From NCBI GenBank assembly GCA_000824785.1, contig CCNB01000004.1, positions 238,585 to 302,584 on the forward strand: a stretch of 64,000 nt of DNA, read 5' to 3'. Position numbers and translations under genes: made by a program. The notes beneath the pieces were generated by a model. The model had not been told where the DNA came from and ran no database searches. It was given only the letters and a program-made list of their open reading frames with translations. This DNA is from Mesorhizobium plurifarium. GTDB lineage: Bacteria > Pseudomonadota > Alphaproteobacteria > Rhizobiales > Rhizobiaceae. Shown piece after piece: positions 34,639-43,224 of this stretch (position 1 is its first letter; every line of letters starts with the position of its first letter).

Positions 34639-35508
34639 TCATTCGGGATGCGGAGCGCGGGTCAACGGGTCCGATAGCGGGAACTCGGGTGCCGGCGGCG
34701 TGCCGCCCAGGATGCTCGACAGTTCGCAGGCCGCCTTGAATTGCGAAGCGGCTGCCTGCTGGATCGGCACCCGCCCGCGCACCGACTGAAGGAACGGCAT
34801 GGTCAGCGCGGCCAGGGCCTGCCCCCGGCCGTCGAGGATCGGGAAGCTCACATCGGTGATACCGGCAATGTTTTCGCCTGCGATCAGCTCGTAGTGCTGC
34901 GCGGCGATGGCTTCGATGCGCTGCCGCGCCCGCCGCAATTCCGCGCGATCGATACCGTTGGCTGCCAGCGCGTCGAACGTCCACTCGCGTGTCGCTGGCG
35001 GCTGGAAGGCGAGGATCACCCGGCCCGAGGCGGTATGCTCGGCCGGACTCGATGTGCCGAGCCGCACTCTAAAGCCGAGCGGCGCCGGACTGTCGGCATA
35101 GGCGATGGTGCGGATGAACGCCCCCTCCAGCACCGTCAGCAGGATCGACTGCTGCGTTTCGGCCGCGAGCCGCAGCAGGATCGGATTGGCCGCCGTGGTG
35201 AGCATCTCGATCGGCGGGAAAGCAAGCGCAAGGTCGTAGAGCTTCATCGACAGCCTGAAGGCCTCGTCCTGCGGCCCGCGCCGGATATAGCCCCGGCGCT
35301 CCAGTGAGACGACCATGCGGTAGACTTCCTGCAGCGAACGGCTGAGCTGCTGGGCGATCTGGCTCTGGGTCAGTCCTTCGGATTGCCGGGCAAGGAGCTC
35401 GAGCACGTCCAGGCCCTTCTCCAGCGCGGGCGCAAGATAGGTTGCCTGCCCCTCTTTGGGCGCCTTTTCCGCCCGCGCGGCGACGTCGCTTTTCCTTGGC
35501 CCACCCAT
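34639..35508 (-). CDS. IclR family transcriptional regulator
   Basis: A 289-residue regulator. A basic N-terminal tail precedes the winged HTH (residues about 28-90: LARQSEGLTQSQIAQQLSRS, YRMVVSLERRGYI), followed by the IclR effector domain with QQSILLTVLEGAFIRTIAYA, GTSSPAEHTASGRVILAF and the C-terminal ITDVSFPILDGRGQALAALT. ATG 35508 is used; a TTG 63 bases earlier is in frame. It is divergent from the SBP-deacylase-dehydratase-ABC operon at 35639 and most likely controls it, responding to the transported compound or a breakdown product. The intergenic region is strikingly AT-rich and contains a short dyad. Confidence 0.9.
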   Translation of the reverse strand: MGGPRKSDVAARAEKAPKEGQATYLAPALEKGLDVLELLARQSEGLTQSQIAQQLSRSLQEVYRMVVSLERRGYIRRGPQDEAFRLSMKLYDLALAFPPIEMLTTAANPILLRLAAETQQSILLTVLEGAFIRTIAYADSPAPLGFRVRLGTSSPAEHTASGRVILAFQPPATREWTFDALAANGIDRAELRRARQRIEAIAAQHYELIAGENIAGITDVSFPILDGRGQALAALTMPFLQSVRGRVPIQQAAASQFKAACELSSILGGTPPAPEFPLSDPLTRAPHPE

Positions 35509-35591
35509 TTTGATTCTGGTCCCGTCCGTTCCGGTTCGCAGGAACTTGCTGATCTCGGCGGCGATTGACAAGCGCGCAAAGTTCCTATTAC

Positions 35592-35638: not shown

Positions 35639-36826
35639 ATGGATACGCATGCCGTTCGCATACTTCTTCCAGCTCTGCTGCTCGCCGGGCTGGCACTTCC
35701 CAATACCGCTCTCGCCGACGGCAAGGCGGCCCTCGCCACGCTGCCGGACAATCTGCAGAGCCTCTATGTCGGGGCTGAACAGAATGTGCAGCCGTCGGCC
35801 TTCGACGGCTTCGCGATGCCGGCCAAGCCATGGAAATGGTGCCACTCCGAATCGTATCAGGGGAATCCCTGGCGGGTGGCGCTGACCAACCACTTCAAGA
35901 GCCTTGTCGGCGCTTTCCAGGCCGACGGCAGCGTCAGCAGCTTCGAGCTTTCGGACTCCAACGGTGACACCAGCCAGCAGATCGCCCAGCTCCGTGCCTT
36001 CATCGACAAGAAATGCAGCATCATCACTGTCGTGGCCGGATCGTCGACCGCGCTGAACGACGCCATCGAGGCGGCCTATAAAGCGGGCATTCCGGTGGTC
36101 TCGGTGGGCCTCGTCACCACCCCTTACGCGGTCAGTGTCGATTCCAACTACATCAAGTTCGGCTATGACATGGCCAAGGACATCACCACGGCGCTCAACG
36201 GCAAGGGCAATGTGCTGAGGGTCGAGGGCATTGCCGGCAGTCCGCTGGTCGCCGAGCAGCGCGTCGGCGCCGACAAAGGGTTCGCGGAATCGCCGGACGT
36301 GAAGGTCGTGCGCGACGTCAACGGCAACTGGACCGCGGCGGTGACCAAGACGGTGGTGCTGCAGGCGCTTGCTACCAATCCGGGTCCGATCGAAGCGGTG
36401 TGGACTTCGGGCAGCGAAGCGCGTGTGGTGGCCGAGGCCTTCGCGCAGGCCGGCCGGCCGGCGCCCGTCATCACCGGCAGCATTTCGGGCGATGCCCTCG
36501 GCTATTGGAAAGCGCATCCGGACTTCAAGTTCACGGGCGGCGCGCTGTTGCCGTCATGGACCGCGCAGACGGCGGTGCGCGTCGGCGTGCGGATGCTGCA
36601 GGGCCAGGAGCCCAAGGTGAGCCTGGTGGAAATCCCGGTCCCCGACGTCAAGATCGGCGACCTTGGTTCATGGTACCGCTCATGCATGACGGCCGACGCC
36701 GTCTCGGTCTTCCCGGTCGCGCCGCAGGATCCGATGCCGGAGGACCTGATGAACGGGTACTTCAAGAAGCCCGCGCCGACGCCGCAATTCGACTACGCCA
36801 AGACGCCGGATCCCTGTGCCCAATAA
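35639..36826 (+). CDS. Sugar-type ABC transporter periplasmic binding protein (Peripla_BP_4)
   Basis: A 395-residue binding protein with a signal peptide (LLPALLLAGLALPNTALA). The mature part has the ribose-binding-protein fold: SYQGNPWRVALTNHFKSL, DTSQQIAQLRAFIDKKCSII, AGIPVVSVGLVTTPYAVSVD and GNVLRVEGIAGSPLVAEQR. It is longer than typical ribose-binding proteins, with an extended C-terminal part (WYRSCMTADAVSVFPVAPQD). It should deliver a small ligand to the two permeases at 40364-42321. Three cysteines (WKWCH, KKC, RSC) are unusual for the class. It opens the operon divergent from the IclR gene and is followed by a strong hairpin before the deacylase gene, often a means of giving more binding protein than other subunits. 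Confidence 0.9.
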   Translation: MDTHAVRILLPALLLAGLALPNTALADGKAALATLPDNLQSLYVGAEQNVQPSAFDGFAMPAKPWKWCHSESYQGNPWRVALTNHFKSLVGAFQADGSVSSFELSDSNGDTSQQIAQLRAFIDKKCSIITVVAGSSTALNDAIEAAYKAGIPVVSVGLVTTPYAVSVDSNYIKFGYDMAKDITTALNGKGNVLRVEGIAGSPLVAEQRVGADKGFAESPDVKVVRDVNGNWTAAVTKTVVLQALATNPGPIEAVWTSGSEARVVAEAFAQAGRPAPVITGSISGDALGYWKAHPDFKFTGGALLPSWTAQTAVRVGVRMLQGQEPKVSLVEIPVPDVKIGDLGSWYRSCMTADAVSVFPVAPQDPMPEDLMNGYFKKPAPTPQFDYAKTPDPCAQ

Positions 36827-36900: not shown

Positions 36901-37917
36901 ATGAAGCTTGTCAGCACGGCCAGCACGGATATCGATTTCGAAAAGGATGGAAAGCAGATCGGCTTCGTCAACCTCCCGCTCTCTGTTCACGAGGATGCCT
37001 GGGGCGTCGTGCCGATCCCGCTCACCGTCATCAAGAACGGCAAGGGGCCGACCATCCTGCTGCAGGGCGGCAACCATGGCGACGAATATGAGGGGCCGAT
37101 CGCGCTCGGCGAGCTGATCCGCGATCTCGATCCGGCCTCGATCGCGGGCCGGCTGATCATCGTGCCGGCGATCAATCTGCCGGCGGTCGTGGCGGGTCGG
37201 CGAACCTCGCCGATCGACGACCTCAATCTCAATCGCGTGTTCCCCGGCGATCACGGCGGCACCATCACCGCCCAGATCGCCGCCTACATCAGCGATGTCC
37301 TGTTCCCGATGGCCGATGTCTTCGTCGACCTCCACTCCGGCGGGTCGTCATCGGTCAATGTGCCGAGCGCCGCCATCGAGCCGGCAGCCGATCCAGCGCA
37401 TTTCAAGCGCAACATCGACGCGGTCGTGGCGTTCGGCGCGCCCATGGTCGTGGTCATCTCCAACCGCGGCGATCCACGAACCTCGACGGCCACGGCGGTG
37501 CGCGCGGGGCTGACGGTGGTCGGCACCGAGCTCGCCGGCGGCGGCGGGGTGTCCGTCGAAGCGCTGGCGGTCGTCCGGCGCGGCCTGCGCAACCTGCTGG
37601 CGCATTTTGGCGTGCTGCCGCCCGGAAAGGACGGGCCCCCCTCCATGACGCGACCCGACATCTACGAGATCACTCCCGATGCCTACGTGCTCGCCACCGA
37701 GACAGGCGTGTTCGAACCGCTGCATCTCAACGGCGTCGAGGTGCATGCCGGCGAGCCGGCCGGGCGCATTCATTTTCTTGCCAATCCCGGCCGCGCCCCG
37801 GTAACGCTCTACTACCGGGCCGACGGCATCGTTTACGTGCGCCGCCAGCCGGGCCAGGTCCGGCCCGGCAACGTCTGCATGGTCGTGGCCACGCCCTATC
37901 GCGGGCAACTGCCGTGA
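36901..37917 (+). CDS. Zinc-dependent deacylase, AstE/AspA superfamily (DoeB/EutE-like)
   Basis: A 338-residue M14-fold amidohydrolase. Zinc ligands are visible: GGNHGDEYEG (His and Glu) and, later, DVFVDLHSGG (His). The catalytic Glu lies in GTELAGGGGVSVEAL. The C-terminal beta domain ends with RRQPGQVRPGNVCMVVATPY. Relatives include succinylglutamate desuccinylase, aspartoacylase and DoeB/EutE, which removes the acetyl group from N-acetyl-diaminobutyrate in ectoine breakdown. The sequence looks closest to the DoeB branch, but no other ectoine genes are present. The gene overlaps the downstream dehydratase by four bases (GTGA). Its likely job is to remove an acyl group from the imported compound. 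Confidence 0.87.
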   Translation: MKLVSTASTDIDFEKDGKQIGFVNLPLSVHEDAWGVVPIPLTVIKNGKGPTILLQGGNHGDEYEGPIALGELIRDLDPASIAGRLIIVPAINLPAVVAGRRTSPIDDLNLNRVFPGDHGGTITAQIAAYISDVLFPMADVFVDLHSGGSSSVNVPSAAIEPAADPAHFKRNIDAVVAFGAPMVVVISNRGDPRTSTATAVRAGLTVVGTELAGGGGVSVEALAVVRRGLRNLLAHFGVLPPGKDGPPSMTRPDIYEITPDAYVLATETGVFEPLHLNGVEVHAGEPAGRIHFLANPGRAPVTLYYRADGIVYVRRQPGQVRPGNVCMVVATPYRGQLP

Positions 37918-38870
37918 TCGGCCTCGACGATGTGCGGGCGGCCGCCGAACGCATCGCGCCATACATCCGAAGCACGCCGGTCGTGAAGATGACGGCTACT
38001 CGACAGCCATTGGCGGATGCCGAAGTCTGGATGAAGCTCGAGTCGCTGCAGCCGACCGGCTCCTTCAAGGCCAGAGGAGCCACCAACCGCCTGCTGACCA
38101 CGCCCCGGCAAGAGCTCGCCGCCGGCATCGTGACTGCTTCGGGAGGCAATCACGGCCTCGCGACCGCGCGGGCGGCAACGATCGCCGGCGTGACGGCCAC
38201 GGTCTTCGTGCCTGAGACGGCCGAGCAGGCGAAGATCGAAAAGCTCCGTGCGTGGGGCGCCGAGGTCCGTGTCGAGGGCGCCGTCTGGGATGCCACCAAC
38301 CGAGCGGCCCTGGCGTTCGCCAAGGAACGCAACGCAGCCTATTTCCATCCCTTTGCCGATCCCCAGGTCGTGGCCGGCCAGGGCACGATCGGGCTCGAGC
38401 TCATCGAGGCGCTGCCGGAACTCGACACCGTGCTGGTCGCTATCGGGGGCGGCGGATTGATCTCCGGCATCTCTGTCGCGCTCAAGGCGCTGAAACCTTC
38501 GATCCGGATCGTCGGCATAGAGCCCGCCGGTTCGCCGACGCTCCAGGCCTCTCTTGCCGCCGGCCATGTGGTCACCCTGCCGGCCGTCACAACCCGCATC
38601 GCCACCATGGCTTGCGGGCGGACCGACGAGCGCATCTTCGGCATCGTGCAAGAGCATGTCGACGAGATCATCCTGGTCGGCGACGAGGACATGCAGGCGG
38701 CTGCGCGCTGGCTGTGGTTCGAATTCGGCATCGCGGCTGACCTGAGCGGCGCGGCCGGCATTGCTGCCTTGCGCTCGGGCAAGCTGGGCTTGCCGCCGCG
38801 CGCCAAGATCGCGACGCTCATCTGCGGCGCCGGCAGCAACGGCATCGGCATTGGACGGCCAATGAGATGA
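37914..38870 (+). CDS. PLP-dependent threonine/hydroxyamino-acid dehydratase-like enzyme (EutB-like)
   Basis: A 318-residue fold-type II PLP enzyme. The Schiff-base lysine lies in QPTGSFKARGATNRL, the phosphate loop is the glycine run IGGGGLISGIS, and SGGNHGLATARAATIAGV is the substrate loop. Relatives are threonine dehydratase, serine racemase, hydroxyaspartate dehydratase and the hydroxyectoine-utilisation enzyme EutB. GTG 37914 overlaps the deacylase stop by four bases, and its stop overlaps the next ABC ATPase by four bases. In this operon it probably deaminates the amino acid released by the deacylase to a keto acid. The regulatory ACT domain of biosynthetic threonine dehydratase is absent, which fits a catabolic role. 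Confidence 0.88.
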   Translation: MIGLDDVRAAAERIAPYIRSTPVVKMTATRQPLADAEVWMKLESLQPTGSFKARGATNRLLTTPRQELAAGIVTASGGNHGLATARAATIAGVTATVFVPETAEQAKIEKLRAWGAEVRVEGAVWDATNRAALAFAKERNAAYFHPFADPQVVAGQGTIGLELIEALPELDTVLVAIGGGGLISGISVALKALKPSIRIVGIEPAGSPTLQASLAAGHVVTLPAVTTRIATMACGRTDERIFGIVQEHVDEIILVGDEDMQAAARWLWFEFGIAADLSGAAGIAALRSGKLGLPPRAKIATLICGAGSNGIGIGRPMR

Positions 38871-39628
38871 CCGGCGAGCGCGCCCCGATGCTGGAAGCGT
38901 GCGGCCTGTCGAAGCGCTATGGCGAGACCGTGGCGCTGTCGAACGTCGATCTCGCCTTCCAGCCGGGCTCGGTCCACGCCATCCTGGGCGAGAATGGCTG
39001 CGGCAAGAGCACGCTGGTCAAATTGCTCTCGGGGATCGTCGCGCCCTCCTCCGGGACCATCCGGATGCTTGGCCGGCCGGTCACCGGCTCCAATCCGGCG
39101 CGCATCCAGCAACTCGGCCTGGCGACGGTTTTCCAGGAAGTGCTGCTCGCCCCCGAACGCTCCGTGGCCGACAACATCGTGCTCGGCACCGGCTCGGCTT
39201 TCGGCTGGCGCGCCGGCCGCTCGGCGCGTCACCGCATCGCCGCAGCCGCTCTCTCGCGGGTCACCAGCCTGCCGATCGATCTCGATGCGCCCGCCGGGTC
39301 GCTGTCGCTGGCGGTGGGCCAATTGGTCGTGCTGGCGCGGGCCCTGGTCCGCCGCCCGAAAATCCTTGTGCTCGACGAGGTCACCGCCGCGCTCGACCTC
39401 GGCGACCGCAACGCGGTGTTCGAGATGATCGAGGGCCACGCCCGGGCGGGCGGCCTGGTGCTGTTCATCTCGCACCGGATGGACGAGGTGATGCGTCTGG
39501 CTCATCGGGTCACCGTGCTGCGCAATGGACAACTGGTCGATACGCTCGAAACCGCGTCGGTTTCGGCCGAACGGCTGCTGCAATTGATGGCGCCCGCCAC
39601 CGCCAGGGAGCTCGATCATGCCCTCTGA
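38867..39628 (+). CDS. ABC transporter ATPase, N-terminal-half (NBD1) of an RbsA-type protein
   Basis: A 253-residue single ABC domain. Walker A is intact (GENGCGKST, residues 41-49) and so is Walker B with its catalytic Glu (ILVLDE, near residue 165), and the H-loop is FISHRMDE. The ABC signature is degenerate (LSLAVGQ near residue 145). RbsA/MglA proteins carry two such domains in about 500 residues; this gene ends after the first and the second is encoded separately by the overlapping next gene in another frame. It is coupled to the dehydratase by an ATGA overlap. The N-terminal RAPMLEACGLSKRYG is normal, so the split seems clean. Confidence 0.9.
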   Translation: MTGERAPMLEACGLSKRYGETVALSNVDLAFQPGSVHAILGENGCGKSTLVKLLSGIVAPSSGTIRMLGRPVTGSNPARIQQLGLATVFQEVLLAPERSVADNIVLGTGSAFGWRAGRSARHRIAAAALSRVTSLPIDLDAPAGSLSLAVGQLVVLARALVRRPKILVLDEVTAALDLGDRNAVFEMIEGHARAGGLVLFISHRMDEVMRLAHRVTVLRNGQLVDTLETASVSAERLLQLMAPATARELDHAL

Positions 39629-40367
39629 GCCGGCCCTGCGCGTCGAAGGCGTATCGCTTGCCCATAATACGCCGGGGCTGGACGAACGCGTCCATGCAGG
39701 CGAGATCGTCGGCCTCGCCGGTCTCGACGGGCATGGCCAGGACGCCTTCCTCGAAACGCTTGCCGGCTTGCGCGCGCCGGTCGCCGGTCGCATCCTCGTC
39801 CGTAGTGGCAGCGCCGGCTATGTCGAAATCGACGATTTCCGCCACGCCACACGGCTCGGCATCGCTTATCTTGCCCGTGACCGCAGAGCCAACGGCATCT
39901 TCCCCTCGCTGTCGATCCTCGACAATTTCAGCATGGTGACGCTGGGGCGCGATCGTCGCTTCGGATTGATCAGCCCGCGCGCCAGGCGCGAACGCTTCGA
40001 GCGCTACCGCGAGCGGCTGTCGATCGTCGCGCCCGGCGGCAACAAGCCGATCACGGCTCTCTCGGGCGGCAACCAGCAAAAGGTGCTGCTGGCGCGCTGG
40101 CTGGCGCGCGAACCCAGGATTCTCCTCCTCAACGACCCCACGCGCGGCGTCGATCAGCGGACCCGTGAAACGCTCTACCAGGCTTTCCGCGATCTCGCGC
40201 GACAGGAGGGCATGGCGCTTGTCGTGTTGTCCTCGGAGCTGGAGGAAATCTTCCGCCTCTGCGATCGGCTCCTGGTGTTCCGCGAGCAGGGCGTCGTCGC
40301 TAGCTTTTCGGGAGCCGATATGAACAGCAGCACAGTGATCGCGGCAATGTTCGGGCGCGTCGCATGA
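39618..40367 (+). CDS. ABC transporter ATPase, C-terminal-half (NBD2) of an RbsA-type protein
   Basis: A 249-residue ABC domain matching the second half of RbsA/MglA proteins. Walker A is degenerate (GLDGHGQDAF, near residue 34), the signature is intact (LSGGNQQK, near residue 148) and Walker B reads LLLNDPTRGVD with Asn-Asp in place of the usual Asp-Glu. It starts 11 bases inside the end of the NBD1 gene in a different frame, with no convincing ribosome-binding site, so translational coupling or reinitiation is likely. NBD1 and NBD2 together can form one competent ATP site: NBD1 Walker motifs with this signature. The stop overlaps the first permease gene by four bases. Confidence 0.9.
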   Translation: MPSEPALRVEGVSLAHNTPGLDERVHAGEIVGLAGLDGHGQDAFLETLAGLRAPVAGRILVRSGSAGYVEIDDFRHATRLGIAYLARDRRANGIFPSLSILDNFSMVTLGRDRRFGLISPRARRERFERYRERLSIVAPGGNKPITALSGGNQQKVLLARWLAREPRILLLNDPTRGVDQRTRETLYQAFRDLARQEGMALVVLSSELEEIFRLCDRLLVFREQGVVASFSGADMNSSTVIAAMFGRVA

Positions 40368-41356
40368 CAGCGGCCGCGCCAATTGCCGGCAACGCGCCTG
40401 CGCGATCGCGTGGCATCGGGGCGCTCCTGGCCGGCCGTCGCGAGTCGGCGCCGGCCCTGGTCATCCTTGCCGTTCTGCTCATCGTCGACCTGTGGCTGAA
40501 CCGGGCCTGGATGCTGCCCGGCTCCTGGGGCACCGTCATCGGCCTCGCCGGCCCGACGATGGCGGCAGCGATCGCCTCCATGCCGGCGATCATGGCCGGG
40601 CGCGGCGGCATCGACGTCTCGATCGGCCCGTTGATGGGGTTCATCAACATCATCCTGGTCAAGGTGCTGGCGGGAGATATGGGCATCGACCAACCCTGGG
40701 TGCTGGTGCCGGTCGCCCTTGCGATCGGCGCGCTCGTCGGGCTGTTCAACGGGCTGCTCTCCGCGGTGCTGCGCATCCAGCCGATCGTGGCCACGCTCGG
40801 CACCTATCTGGTGCTCAGCGGCGTGACACTGACCCTTCTGCCTGCGCCGGAGGGCGCGGCGCCCGCCTGGCTGAAGGCCCTTGCCGGCCCCTACTCCATC
40901 GTCCCGCTCGCCGGCATGGCAACAGTCTGGCTGCTGGCGAAGCGCCTGACCGTCTATGATTGGCTGATGGCGTGCGGCAGCGATGACCGTGCCTGCTTCA
41001 CCGCCGGCATCCCCGTAACCGGCGTGCGTGTCTTCGCCTACACGCTTGGCGGCCTTTTTGCCGGCGCCGGAGGGCTTTTGCTCAGCGCGCTGCTCGGCTC
41101 GGCCGACCCCAATGTCGGCCCCACCTTCACGCTGGTCGCCATCTCCGGCGTGGCGCTCGGCGGCGTGAGCCTTGCGGGAGGGCGCGGCGGCTTCGCGGCC
41201 GCGGCGCTTGGGGCGGCAGTGATCTTCCTGCTGCAGAGCACGCTCACCTATTTCAACGTCTCGAGCTTCCTGCTGCACACCCTCTACGGTGTCATCCTGG
41301 TGGCATCAGTGTCACTGAACGCGCTCACCGGCCGCGTCGCGGGAGGACCGAGATGA
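40364..41356 (+). CDS. ABC transporter permease, RbsC/BPD_transp_2 family (first)
   Basis: A 330-residue membrane protein with eight to ten helices, ATGA-overlapping both neighbours. The segment IMAGRGGIDVSIGPLMGFIN and the later VALGGVSLAGGRGGFAAAAL are hallmarks of the ribose/branched-chain permease family; the latter is in the cytoplasmic coupling region. A long N-terminal segment (about 25 residues) precedes the first helix. It forms the membrane channel with the second permease at 41353. Having two different permeases matches the two different ATPases. Confidence 0.92.
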   Translation: MTAAAPIAGNAPARSRGIGALLAGRRESAPALVILAVLLIVDLWLNRAWMLPGSWGTVIGLAGPTMAAAIASMPAIMAGRGGIDVSIGPLMGFINIILVKVLAGDMGIDQPWVLVPVALAIGALVGLFNGLLSAVLRIQPIVATLGTYLVLSGVTLTLLPAPEGAAPAWLKALAGPYSIVPLAGMATVWLLAKRLTVYDWLMACGSDDRACFTAGIPVTGVRVFAYTLGGLFAGAGGLLLSALLGSADPNVGPTFTLVAISGVALGGVSLAGGRGGFAAAALGAAVIFLLQSTLTYFNVSSFLLHTLYGVILVASVSLNALTGRVAGGPR

Positions 41357-42321
41357 ACGTCCTTTCCGGCCTCGGCGCCAACACCCGCCGCACCCTTGGC
41401 GCCATAGGCATGGCTTTGGTGCTGCTCGTCCTCGGCTCACTGATGATCGAGGGTTTCGGCGCTCCGTTCGCCATCCGCTCCATGCTCGTTCTGGCCACCT
41501 TCATCGCCGTGGCGTCCATCGGCCAAACGCTGGTGGTCCTGCTTGGCGGCATAGACCTGTCGATCCCCTTCGTCATCGGCTTCGCCAATGTCGTTGCCGC
41601 CTCGCTTTACGGCGACGGGATGGCGTTCTGGCTGGTCTGTTTCATCGTGGCGTTGCTGTCGATGGCCATCGGAGCTCTCAACGGCGCGCTGTCCTCTTTC
41701 CTCAGGATCCATCCGTTGATCGTGACGCTTGGCGTCGGCACCGCGGTACAGGGGATCGTGCTGATGTGGACGGGCGGGCTGCCCACCGGCTCGGCTCCAG
41801 CCTGTCTGAGCGAGTTCGTGTCGATCGGCGGGACGATCGGCCCGCTGCCCGTGCCGTGGGTCGTGCCGTGCTTCGCGGTGCTGGCAGTCTTTGTCCATGT
41901 GATGCTTGCACGCACGCCGTTCGGCCGGCAGGTCTATGCGCTCGGCAGCAACCCGACGGCAGCGCCGCTGGCGCTGATCGACCCGCATCGGATCGTCGTC
42001 GTCAGCTACGCGCTGAGCGCCCTGTTCGCCGCGCTCGCGGGCGTCCTGCTGCTCGGCTTCACCGGCTCGGCCTATGGCGACGTCGGCCAACCTTACCTGT
42101 TCCAGACCATTGCAGCGGTGGTGATCGGCGGCACCGCGCTCGTCGGCGGGCGCGGCAGCCTGATCGGCACGGTTGCCGGCTCGGCAGTCCTGATCGAGCT
42201 CAACACTTTCCTGATCGGCCTCGGCCTCGCGCCCTCCACGGTGCAGGCCGCGCTGGGGATCGTCATTCTCGCATTGGTCTCGATCTACGGCCGCGAAGCC
42301 CACGTCCGCACATTGATCTGA
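41353..42321 (+). CDS. ABC transporter permease, RbsC/BPD_transp_2 family (second)
   Basis: A 322-residue membrane protein similar in plan to the preceding one. SIGQTLVVLLGGIDLSIPFV is the N-terminal hallmark and VIGGTALVGGRGSLIGTVAG the coupling region; RTPFGRQVYALGSNPTAAPL is the usual EAA-like loop. About nine helices. It overlaps the first permease by four bases and ends the operon. A hairpin lies just downstream, before the convergent beta-lactamase gene. Confidence 0.92.
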   Translation: MNVLSGLGANTRRTLGAIGMALVLLVLGSLMIEGFGAPFAIRSMLVLATFIAVASIGQTLVVLLGGIDLSIPFVIGFANVVAASLYGDGMAFWLVCFIVALLSMAIGALNGALSSFLRIHPLIVTLGVGTAVQGIVLMWTGGLPTGSAPACLSEFVSIGGTIGPLPVPWVVPCFAVLAVFVHVMLARTPFGRQVYALGSNPTAAPLALIDPHRIVVVSYALSALFAALAGVLLLGFTGSAYGDVGQPYLFQTIAAVVIGGTALVGGRGSLIGTVAGSAVLIELNTFLIGLGLAPSTVQAALGIVILALVSIYGREAHVRTLI

Positions 42322-42411: not shown

Positions 42412-43224
42412 TCATTTCACCAGCTGCGGCAAATCCTTCAGGAACGCCGCCCGCGTCGCAAGCCCCTTCGGCTTGTCGGTACGCTTGGCATCGATGACCA
42501 GCCTTGCAAAAACGACGCGGCGGCCGTCCTTCTCGGCCCAGCCGACAAACCAGCCGAGCGAGCGCTTGCCGTCCTCGCCAAGCCTGGTGCTGCCCGTCTT
42601 GCCCTGCACCGTCCAGTCTCCCGCCGCGAAGGTCGGCAGGATCGCCCTGGTCATTTCATGCGCCTTCGCCGACACCGGCACCTTGCCGGCGAGCAGCTGG
42701 CGAAGGAACGCCGTCTGCTCGACCGGCGATATTTCGAGCGAGGAATTGATCCAGGATTGCGTTAGCCCATTGTCCTTGCCGGCATCGCCCGAGACGTCCT
42801 TGTTGCCATAGCCGAATTTCGAAACGTAACCGGCGAACTTCTCAGCGCCCAGACGCCGCGTGATCTCGCGCGAGTACCAGACGATGGAATCGCGCTCCCA
42901 GATCGTCGGATCGACGCTCTTCTGATCGCGCTTCGCCGCCTTGAATTCGGGCTTGTAGTCCCAGCTCGGCGAGTGCACATCGGTCAATATTCCGGCATCG
43001 TAGCCGATCAGCGCCAAGGGTACCTTGAAAGTGGAAGCCGGGCTGACGCGCTTGTCGCAGACACCGTCCTGGTAAAGTGTGGCGCCGCTTTGTGCATCCT
43101 GGATCAGCGTGCAGTGGATATCGTTGAGCGGCGCCGATTGCGCTCGCACAGGCAGGCCCAGCATCCAGGCCAGAAGGAAGAGGACGATGGCAAAAATGAA
43201 GGGATAGCGGTCCATCTGGCGCAT
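42412..43224 (-). CDS. Class D (OXA-type) beta-lactamase
   Basis: A 270-residue serine beta-lactamase with a signal peptide (FIFAIVLFLLAWMLGLPVRA). The active-site serine is in STFK (ASTFKVPLALIG), the YGN motif is in KFGYGNKDVSG, and KTG is in QGKTGSTRLG, in the correct order and spacing; SLGWFVGWAEKDGR completes the fold. These enzymes hydrolyse penicillins and some cephalosporins or carbapenems in the periplasm; the spectrum cannot be told from sequence. ATG 43224 follows CGGAGTG. A nearby ATG nine bases later is possible. No mobile element is close, so it looks chromosomal and intrinsic. Confidence 0.93.
   Translation of the reverse strand: MRQMDRYPFIFAIVLFLLAWMLGLPVRAQSAPLNDIHCTLIQDAQSGATLYQDGVCDKRVSPASTFKVPLALIGYDAGILTDVHSPSWDYKPEFKAAKRDQKSVDPTIWERDSIVWYSREITRRLGAEKFAGYVSKFGYGNKDVSGDAGKDNGLTQSWINSSLEISPVEQTAFLRQLLAGKVPVSAKAHEMTRAILPTFAAGDWTVQGKTGSTRLGEDGKRSLGWFVGWAEKDGRRVVFARLVIDAKRTDKPKGLATRAAFLKDLPQLVK

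Follow-up and report, generated by a model that had tools for sequence, protein, structure and literature searches.

A probable CUT2-type importer ATPase encoded as two overlapping half-genes in Mesorhizobium plurifarium and its relatives

The ATPases of CUT2 importers usually carry both nucleotide-binding domains (NBDs) in one polypeptide of ~500 residues. All eight CUT2 ATPases of Escherichia coli K-12 (RbsA, MglA, XylG, AraG, LsrA, AlsA, YtfR, and YphE) are fused in this way, and in all eight the two halves are unequal: the signature of NBD1 departs from LSGG, and NBD2 keeps LSGGNQQK and the DE of Walker B but has Arg in place of the Walker A Lys and Ser in place of the H-loop His. Asymmetric NBDs have also been described for RbsA and NupO of Bacillus subtilis, in a paper that counts these two as the only fused NBDs of the species; according to that paper, each has one degenerate site and lacks the second Walker A lysine, as does the system described here, and in NupO the acids of the second Walker B are missing as well (PMC11466899). 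For Brucella, ten MOS systems have been tabulated, one as 'ABC' and nine as 'ABC2' (PMC2821768); the 'ABC' entry would be a monosaccharide-type system with a one-NBD gene and no complementary pair. Heterodimeric ABC exporters such as BmrCD have in common with the arrangement proposed here that two proteins provide one competent and one degenerate site. TM287/288 is a further heterodimeric exporter with one degenerate site, but in these exporters a membrane domain and an NBD lie on one chain, so that their architecture differs from that of the system in question. FrcA of Sinorhizobium meliloti has the size of a single NBD, with one NBD gene per system rather than a complementary pair. Among the titles listed by our literature searches, which took in few subscription journals, none described a split CUT2 pair.

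In the window, by which we mean the whole 64,000-nucleotide stretch of M. plurifarium DNA that was analysed, the two NBDs are not joined in the usual ~500-residue polypeptide but are encoded by two genes (Table 1). As the initial annotation had claimed, these genes overlap in different frames, and both are complete ABC ATPase genes; the motifs that it quoted are all present, namely GENGCGKST, LVLDE, and LSLAVGQ in NBD1 and GLDGHGQDAF, LLLND, and LSGGNQQK in NBD2. The operon also encodes the other parts of a CUT2 system, a Peripla_BP_4 binding protein and BPD_transp_2 permeases. From the deacylase gene onward each consecutive gene pair overlaps by 4 nt, save NBD1/NBD2, and a GGAG lies 7 nt 5' of the NBD2 ATG, within the coding sequence of NBD1. 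A reverse-strand ORF (42412-43224) has STFK and KTG motifs, which we take to be a resemblance to class D (OXA-type) beta-lactamases.

Table 1. Features of the split-ATPase operon, in window coordinates.
Feature	Coordinates	Strand	Details
IclR-family regulator, divergent	34639..35571	-	Control of the operon presumed from position
Periplasmic substrate-binding protein (SBP)	35639..36826	+	Peripla_BP_4
AstE/AspA-type deacylase	36901..37917	+	ATG at 36901; nearest model DoeB, 252.7 bits vs cut-off 402.7 (family searches with 36982-37914 as query)
PLP-dependent threonine/serine dehydratase-like enzyme	37914..38870	+	4-nt overlap with NBD1 at its end
NBD1 ABC ATPase half	38867..39628	+	253 aa; Walker A, Q-loop, Walker B, and H-loop intact; signature degenerate (LSLAVGQ)
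NBD1/NBD2 overlap	39618..39628	+	11 nt, different frames
NBD2 ABC ATPase half	39618..40367	+	249 aa; Q instead of K in Walker A and ND instead of DE in Walker B; H-loop His absent; LSGGNQQK intact
Permease 1 (P1)	40364..41356	+	BPD_transp_2; 4-nt overlap with NBD2
Permease 2 (P2)	41353..42321	+	BPD_transp_2; 4-nt overlap with permease 1

Both halves match Pfam ABC_tran (E 1.6e-27 for NBD1 and 3.6e-16 for NBD2), and in alignments to the ~500-residue LsrA, YtfR, and AraG models NBD1 covers the first half and NBD2 the second, in the same NBD order as in the fused E. coli proteins. The best NCBIfam models of both are CUT2 ATPases. Each half was scored alone on a full-length model; the best scores were 186.5 bits against a cut-off of 850 for NBD1 (YtfR) and 162.1 bits against 586 for NBD2 (LsrA), and neither half reached a named NCBIfam equivalog (RbsA, LsrA, YtfR, AraG, and the like) at its curated cut-off; the permeases and the binding protein of the window likewise score on the E. 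coli CUT2 system models below cut-off. Sequence searches of the PDB retrieved general ABC NBDs, with none named as a CUT2 ATPase among the best 60 matches of each half. AlphaFold models of each half alone are confident, with mean pLDDT values of 87.7 (NBD1) and 91.0 (NBD2), and structure comparison of the NBD2 model matched solved ABC NBDs such as LptB. The motifs follow the CUT2 pattern: as in the E. coli proteins, NBD1 combines intact Walker A and B motifs with a degenerate signature, and NBD2 lacks the Walker A Lys and the H-loop His but has kept LSGGNQQK.

The split is of old date and has been passed down in rhizobia and related bacteria. We retrieved 55 relatives with E values of 1e-48 or better, counting the window pair (L001) and leaving L085 out of all tallies as the same locus as L015; 51 are split and four fused. 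Identity to the window's NBD2 is 40-46% for the fused relatives and 45% upward for the split ones, and every relative at 47% or more is split. The split relatives span several genera and four family codes. Within the genus, 54 of 146 genomes match at E 1e-50 or better, in 56 places that all lie in open frames of 246-304 aa and so are too short for a fused protein; 34 of these places were examined as loci (30 from the genus search and four from other searches), and the other 22 were judged by open-frame length alone. At the level of the family, 13 of 101 genomes match at E 1e-60 or better, in 14 places, all in frames of at most 345 aa, and in the order 13 of 297 match at E 1e-48 or better, in 15 places, 12 of them in frames of at most 311 aa and three in frames of at least 540 aa. 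Two of the 289 genomes in the class sample match, the window's own and one with a fused protein (561 aa). In the phylum sample five of 299 do, and besides the window's genome these are four others from the same genus. A second split pair is present in the window's own genome (G000 C34:164869-166339; L002, L058), with an NBD2 63% identical to the window's. This second pair lies near lactonase-like and amidohydrolase genes, and pairs ~60% identical to the window's NBD2 account for nearly all matches within the genus. Two of the five matching plasmid records annotate the halves as separate CDSs, those of Mesorhizobium sp. B2-1-8 plasmid pB2-1-8 (FJ970_RS33510, RS33505) and of a Pararhizobium qamdonense plasmid (PYR65_RS27710, RS27705), and the other three list no gene under the match.

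Elsewhere CUT2 ATPases are mostly fused. That the two domains are normally joined, as the initial annotation held, is borne out by E. coli, by all 10 further CUT2 loci examined in the window's own genome, and by 79 of the best 80 relatives among at least 598 stretches in a scan of genome contigs, in which rows were picked by the peptides LSGGNQQK or NDPTRGVD, so that the last is a sample figure and not a census. The sole split form among those 80 comes from Mesorhizobium sp. LHD-90 and is locus L015 again. The annotation had also suggested comparing relatives, on the reasoning that a genome alone in being split would point to a recent frameshift; the relatives contradict this.

We built a CUT2-only tree of 69 sequences, of which 43 were fused proteins (four sisters of the split forms, 10 from the window's own genome, eight from E. 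coli, and 21 of the 79 fused genome-contig rows) and 26 were split pairs drawn from the 51. The split forms lie on one side of a single branch, with support of 100/98, a grouping shown by all of the 200 bootstrap trees that we checked. Four fused alphaproteobacterial sisters (L171, L173, L054, and L172), the same that are 40-46% identical to the window's NBD2, join the split group with support of 100/99 in this tree, which has no root outside CUT2; the branching order of sisters and split forms is weak (28/79, 27/74), and the bootstrap had not settled (correlation 0.980). Each sister is a single ORF of 540-750 residues, as against two genes here, and the gene order around L054 (locus with flanks L073) is SBP-ATPase-P1-P2, compared with SBP-NBD1-NBD2-P1-P2 in the window and in all 19 split loci fetched with their flanks. 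Since the remainder of the tree consists of fused forms, the change is most naturally read as a single fission event in a fused CUT2 (RbsA-type) ATPase gene, from which all the split forms would descend. Purifying selection acts on both halves: by a simple Nei-Gojobori estimate over six pairs in all, dN/dS between the window and its ortholog G205 is 0.084 for NBD1 and 0.094 for NBD2, with similar values of 0.107 and 0.100 for the permeases, and in the five other pairs it is 0.067-0.202 for NBD1 and 0.049-0.230 for NBD2.

Across the 51 split pairs, the residues of one ATP site are preserved throughout. In NBD1 the Lys of Walker A, the Gln of the Q-loop, both the Asp and the Glu of Walker B, and the H-loop His are each present in 51/51, as is the SGG of LSGGNQQK in NBD2. 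The NBD2 residues of the other site are replaced: the Walker A Lys by Gln in 51/51, the Walker B Asp by Asn in 50/51 (L166 keeps Asp), the Walker B Glu by Asp in 50/51, and the H-loop His by Ser or Thr in 51/51. The third residue of the NBD1 signature is Leu in all pairs, and the fourth is likewise never Gly; the Ser is Pro in 47 and is still present in the window and in two orthologs nearly identical to it. Thus the earlier reading that exactly one composite ATP site is possible holds, in that the motif states leave a single canonical site. The same reading had implied that the degeneracy belongs with the split, and this did not stand. We considered the degeneracy as a consequence of the split and ruled it out, since fused controls have the same asymmetry; its presence in the fused proteins of E. 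coli and B. subtilis makes it a feature of the family and no product of the split. The erosion of NBD2 does go further in the split clade, which has Q in Walker A and mostly ND in Walker B where the E. coli proteins have R and DE, but this too is found in 4/4 fused sisters and in few others, and so probably arose before the split. We had taken the combined Q and N as a mark of the split clade alone and dropped this, because both occur in two of the 79 listed fused genome-contig rows (L119 and L134) and the N in L003 of the window's own genome; in these 79 rows the NBD1 Walker A column is an alignment gap in four, and conservation of the signature is partly by construction, given the peptides by which they were picked. 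The dead NBD2 motifs around GHGQ and LLLNDPTRGVD are nearly invariant in the split clade, as if under selection, which may reflect structure or function.

Could the two frames still yield one protein? A sequencing error or recent frameshift within a fused gene would account for the difference in frame and for so short an overlap, but the arrangement recurs in 51 of the 55 fetched relatives, across genera and family codes, in the second pair of the same genome, and as separate CDSs in the two plasmid records named above, which leaves this explanation practically no probability. Programmed ribosomal frameshifting, by which some or all of the product would be a single fused protein, would suit the overlap of the frames and the existence of fused relatives. 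The overlap is 8 nt in 42 of the 51 pairs, 11 nt in seven, and 4 nt in two, and the start codon of NBD2, selected by a fixed preference for ATG and next for the position closest to -8, lies within it in every pair; between -60 and +30 there is one ATG in 48 pairs, two in one, and none in two. A GGAG stands 4-20 nt before this start in 44/51 pairs, whereas in the rest of NBD1 it occurs in 3.5% of windows of the same phase on average, with the provisos that the split loci share kinship, so that the counts are non-independent, and that the GGAG sits in coding sequence. Furthermore, the relation of the frames is not kept: in L017 and L020, the pairs with 4-nt overlaps, NBD2 is in the other relative frame compared with the remaining 49, which favours restart over programmed frameshifting. 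We therefore regard frameshifting as highly improbable. NBD1 and NBD2 are instead probably translationally coupled, to judge from the overlap and the GGAG.

The partnership of the halves is a separate question, since NBD1 might work alone as a homodimer with NBD2 as a regulatory or vestigial subunit. FrcA-like single-NBD sugar importers do work as homodimers, and the residues of both Walker motifs and of the Q- and H-loops are kept by NBD1 in all 51 pairs; against this, its signature lacks both glycines in every pair, and NBD2 keeps the SGG of LSGGNQQK in every pair and is under purifying selection. We consider such a homodimer very improbable, though somewhat less so than frameshifting. Given the complementary motifs and the co-conservation of the halves, we infer that NBD1 and NBD2 form a heterodimer. 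The initial annotation had predicted an obligate heterodimer, and a heterodimer remains the natural reading of the complementary motifs. Homodimers of either half, or other NBD partners, could also form.

We think it very likely that the locus encodes a CUT2-type (RbsA-like) importer whose ATPase gene was split once and whose halves act as an obligate heterodimer with one catalytic site. In our model, the fission would have occurred once, long ago, in the linker between the two NBDs of a CUT2 ATPase gene, and the halves would now be made from overlapping, probably translationally coupled genes. The binding protein would deliver a small polar substrate to a heterodimeric P1-P2 channel, with the NBD1-NBD2 heterodimer beneath the two different permeases. 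ATP would be hydrolysed at a single composite site, at which the Walker A and B motifs and the Q- and H-loops of NBD1 would face LSGGNQQK and the D-loop of NBD2, and the second ATP site would be catalytically dead. It is conceivable, if rather unlikely, that the two NBDs, one catalytic and one dead, exist as free subunits and are open to regulation through their ratio or their choice of partner, and that GHGQ and LLLNDPTRGVD of NBD2 are no relics but have a positive role, for example as an allosteric gate of the single ATP site.

As to the substrate, the window has DoeB-like deacylase and threonine-dehydratase-like genes between the binding-protein and ATPase genes (36901-38870). We examined 20 split operons and found such genes in three, those of the window, G205, and G203, which suggests a changed substrate. 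A hydroxyectoine-like substrate, proposed from the DoeB- and EutB-like neighbours, was rejected, as both fall well below the curated cut-offs and occur in only those three operons. The neighbours at five other loci and on one plasmid include a lactonase, a fuconolactonase-like amidohydrolase, and a CoA-transferase, with a FAH-family hydrolase in one, and these sampled neighbours suggest that the substrate of other members may be linked to sugar acids or lactones. On pB2-1-8 (G203; L174 4309-5210 and 8001-8711; L060), the binding-protein gene is annotated in two pieces, lying in two frames in L060, and the NBD2 ortholog has an altered, shorter C-terminus. This copy may be decaying.

The pair is a conserved variant of a well-known importer ATPase that probably arose by gene fission, and its predicted one-working-site chemistry is ordinary for the family. 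The suggested order of events is that NBD2 lost its catalytic residues while still fused to NBD1 and that the gene was split later, once. In fused sugar importers the role of the dead site is hard to study because both halves are on one chain. Here there is a natural two-gene version, in which the live and the dead half can be purified, titrated, and deleted apart.
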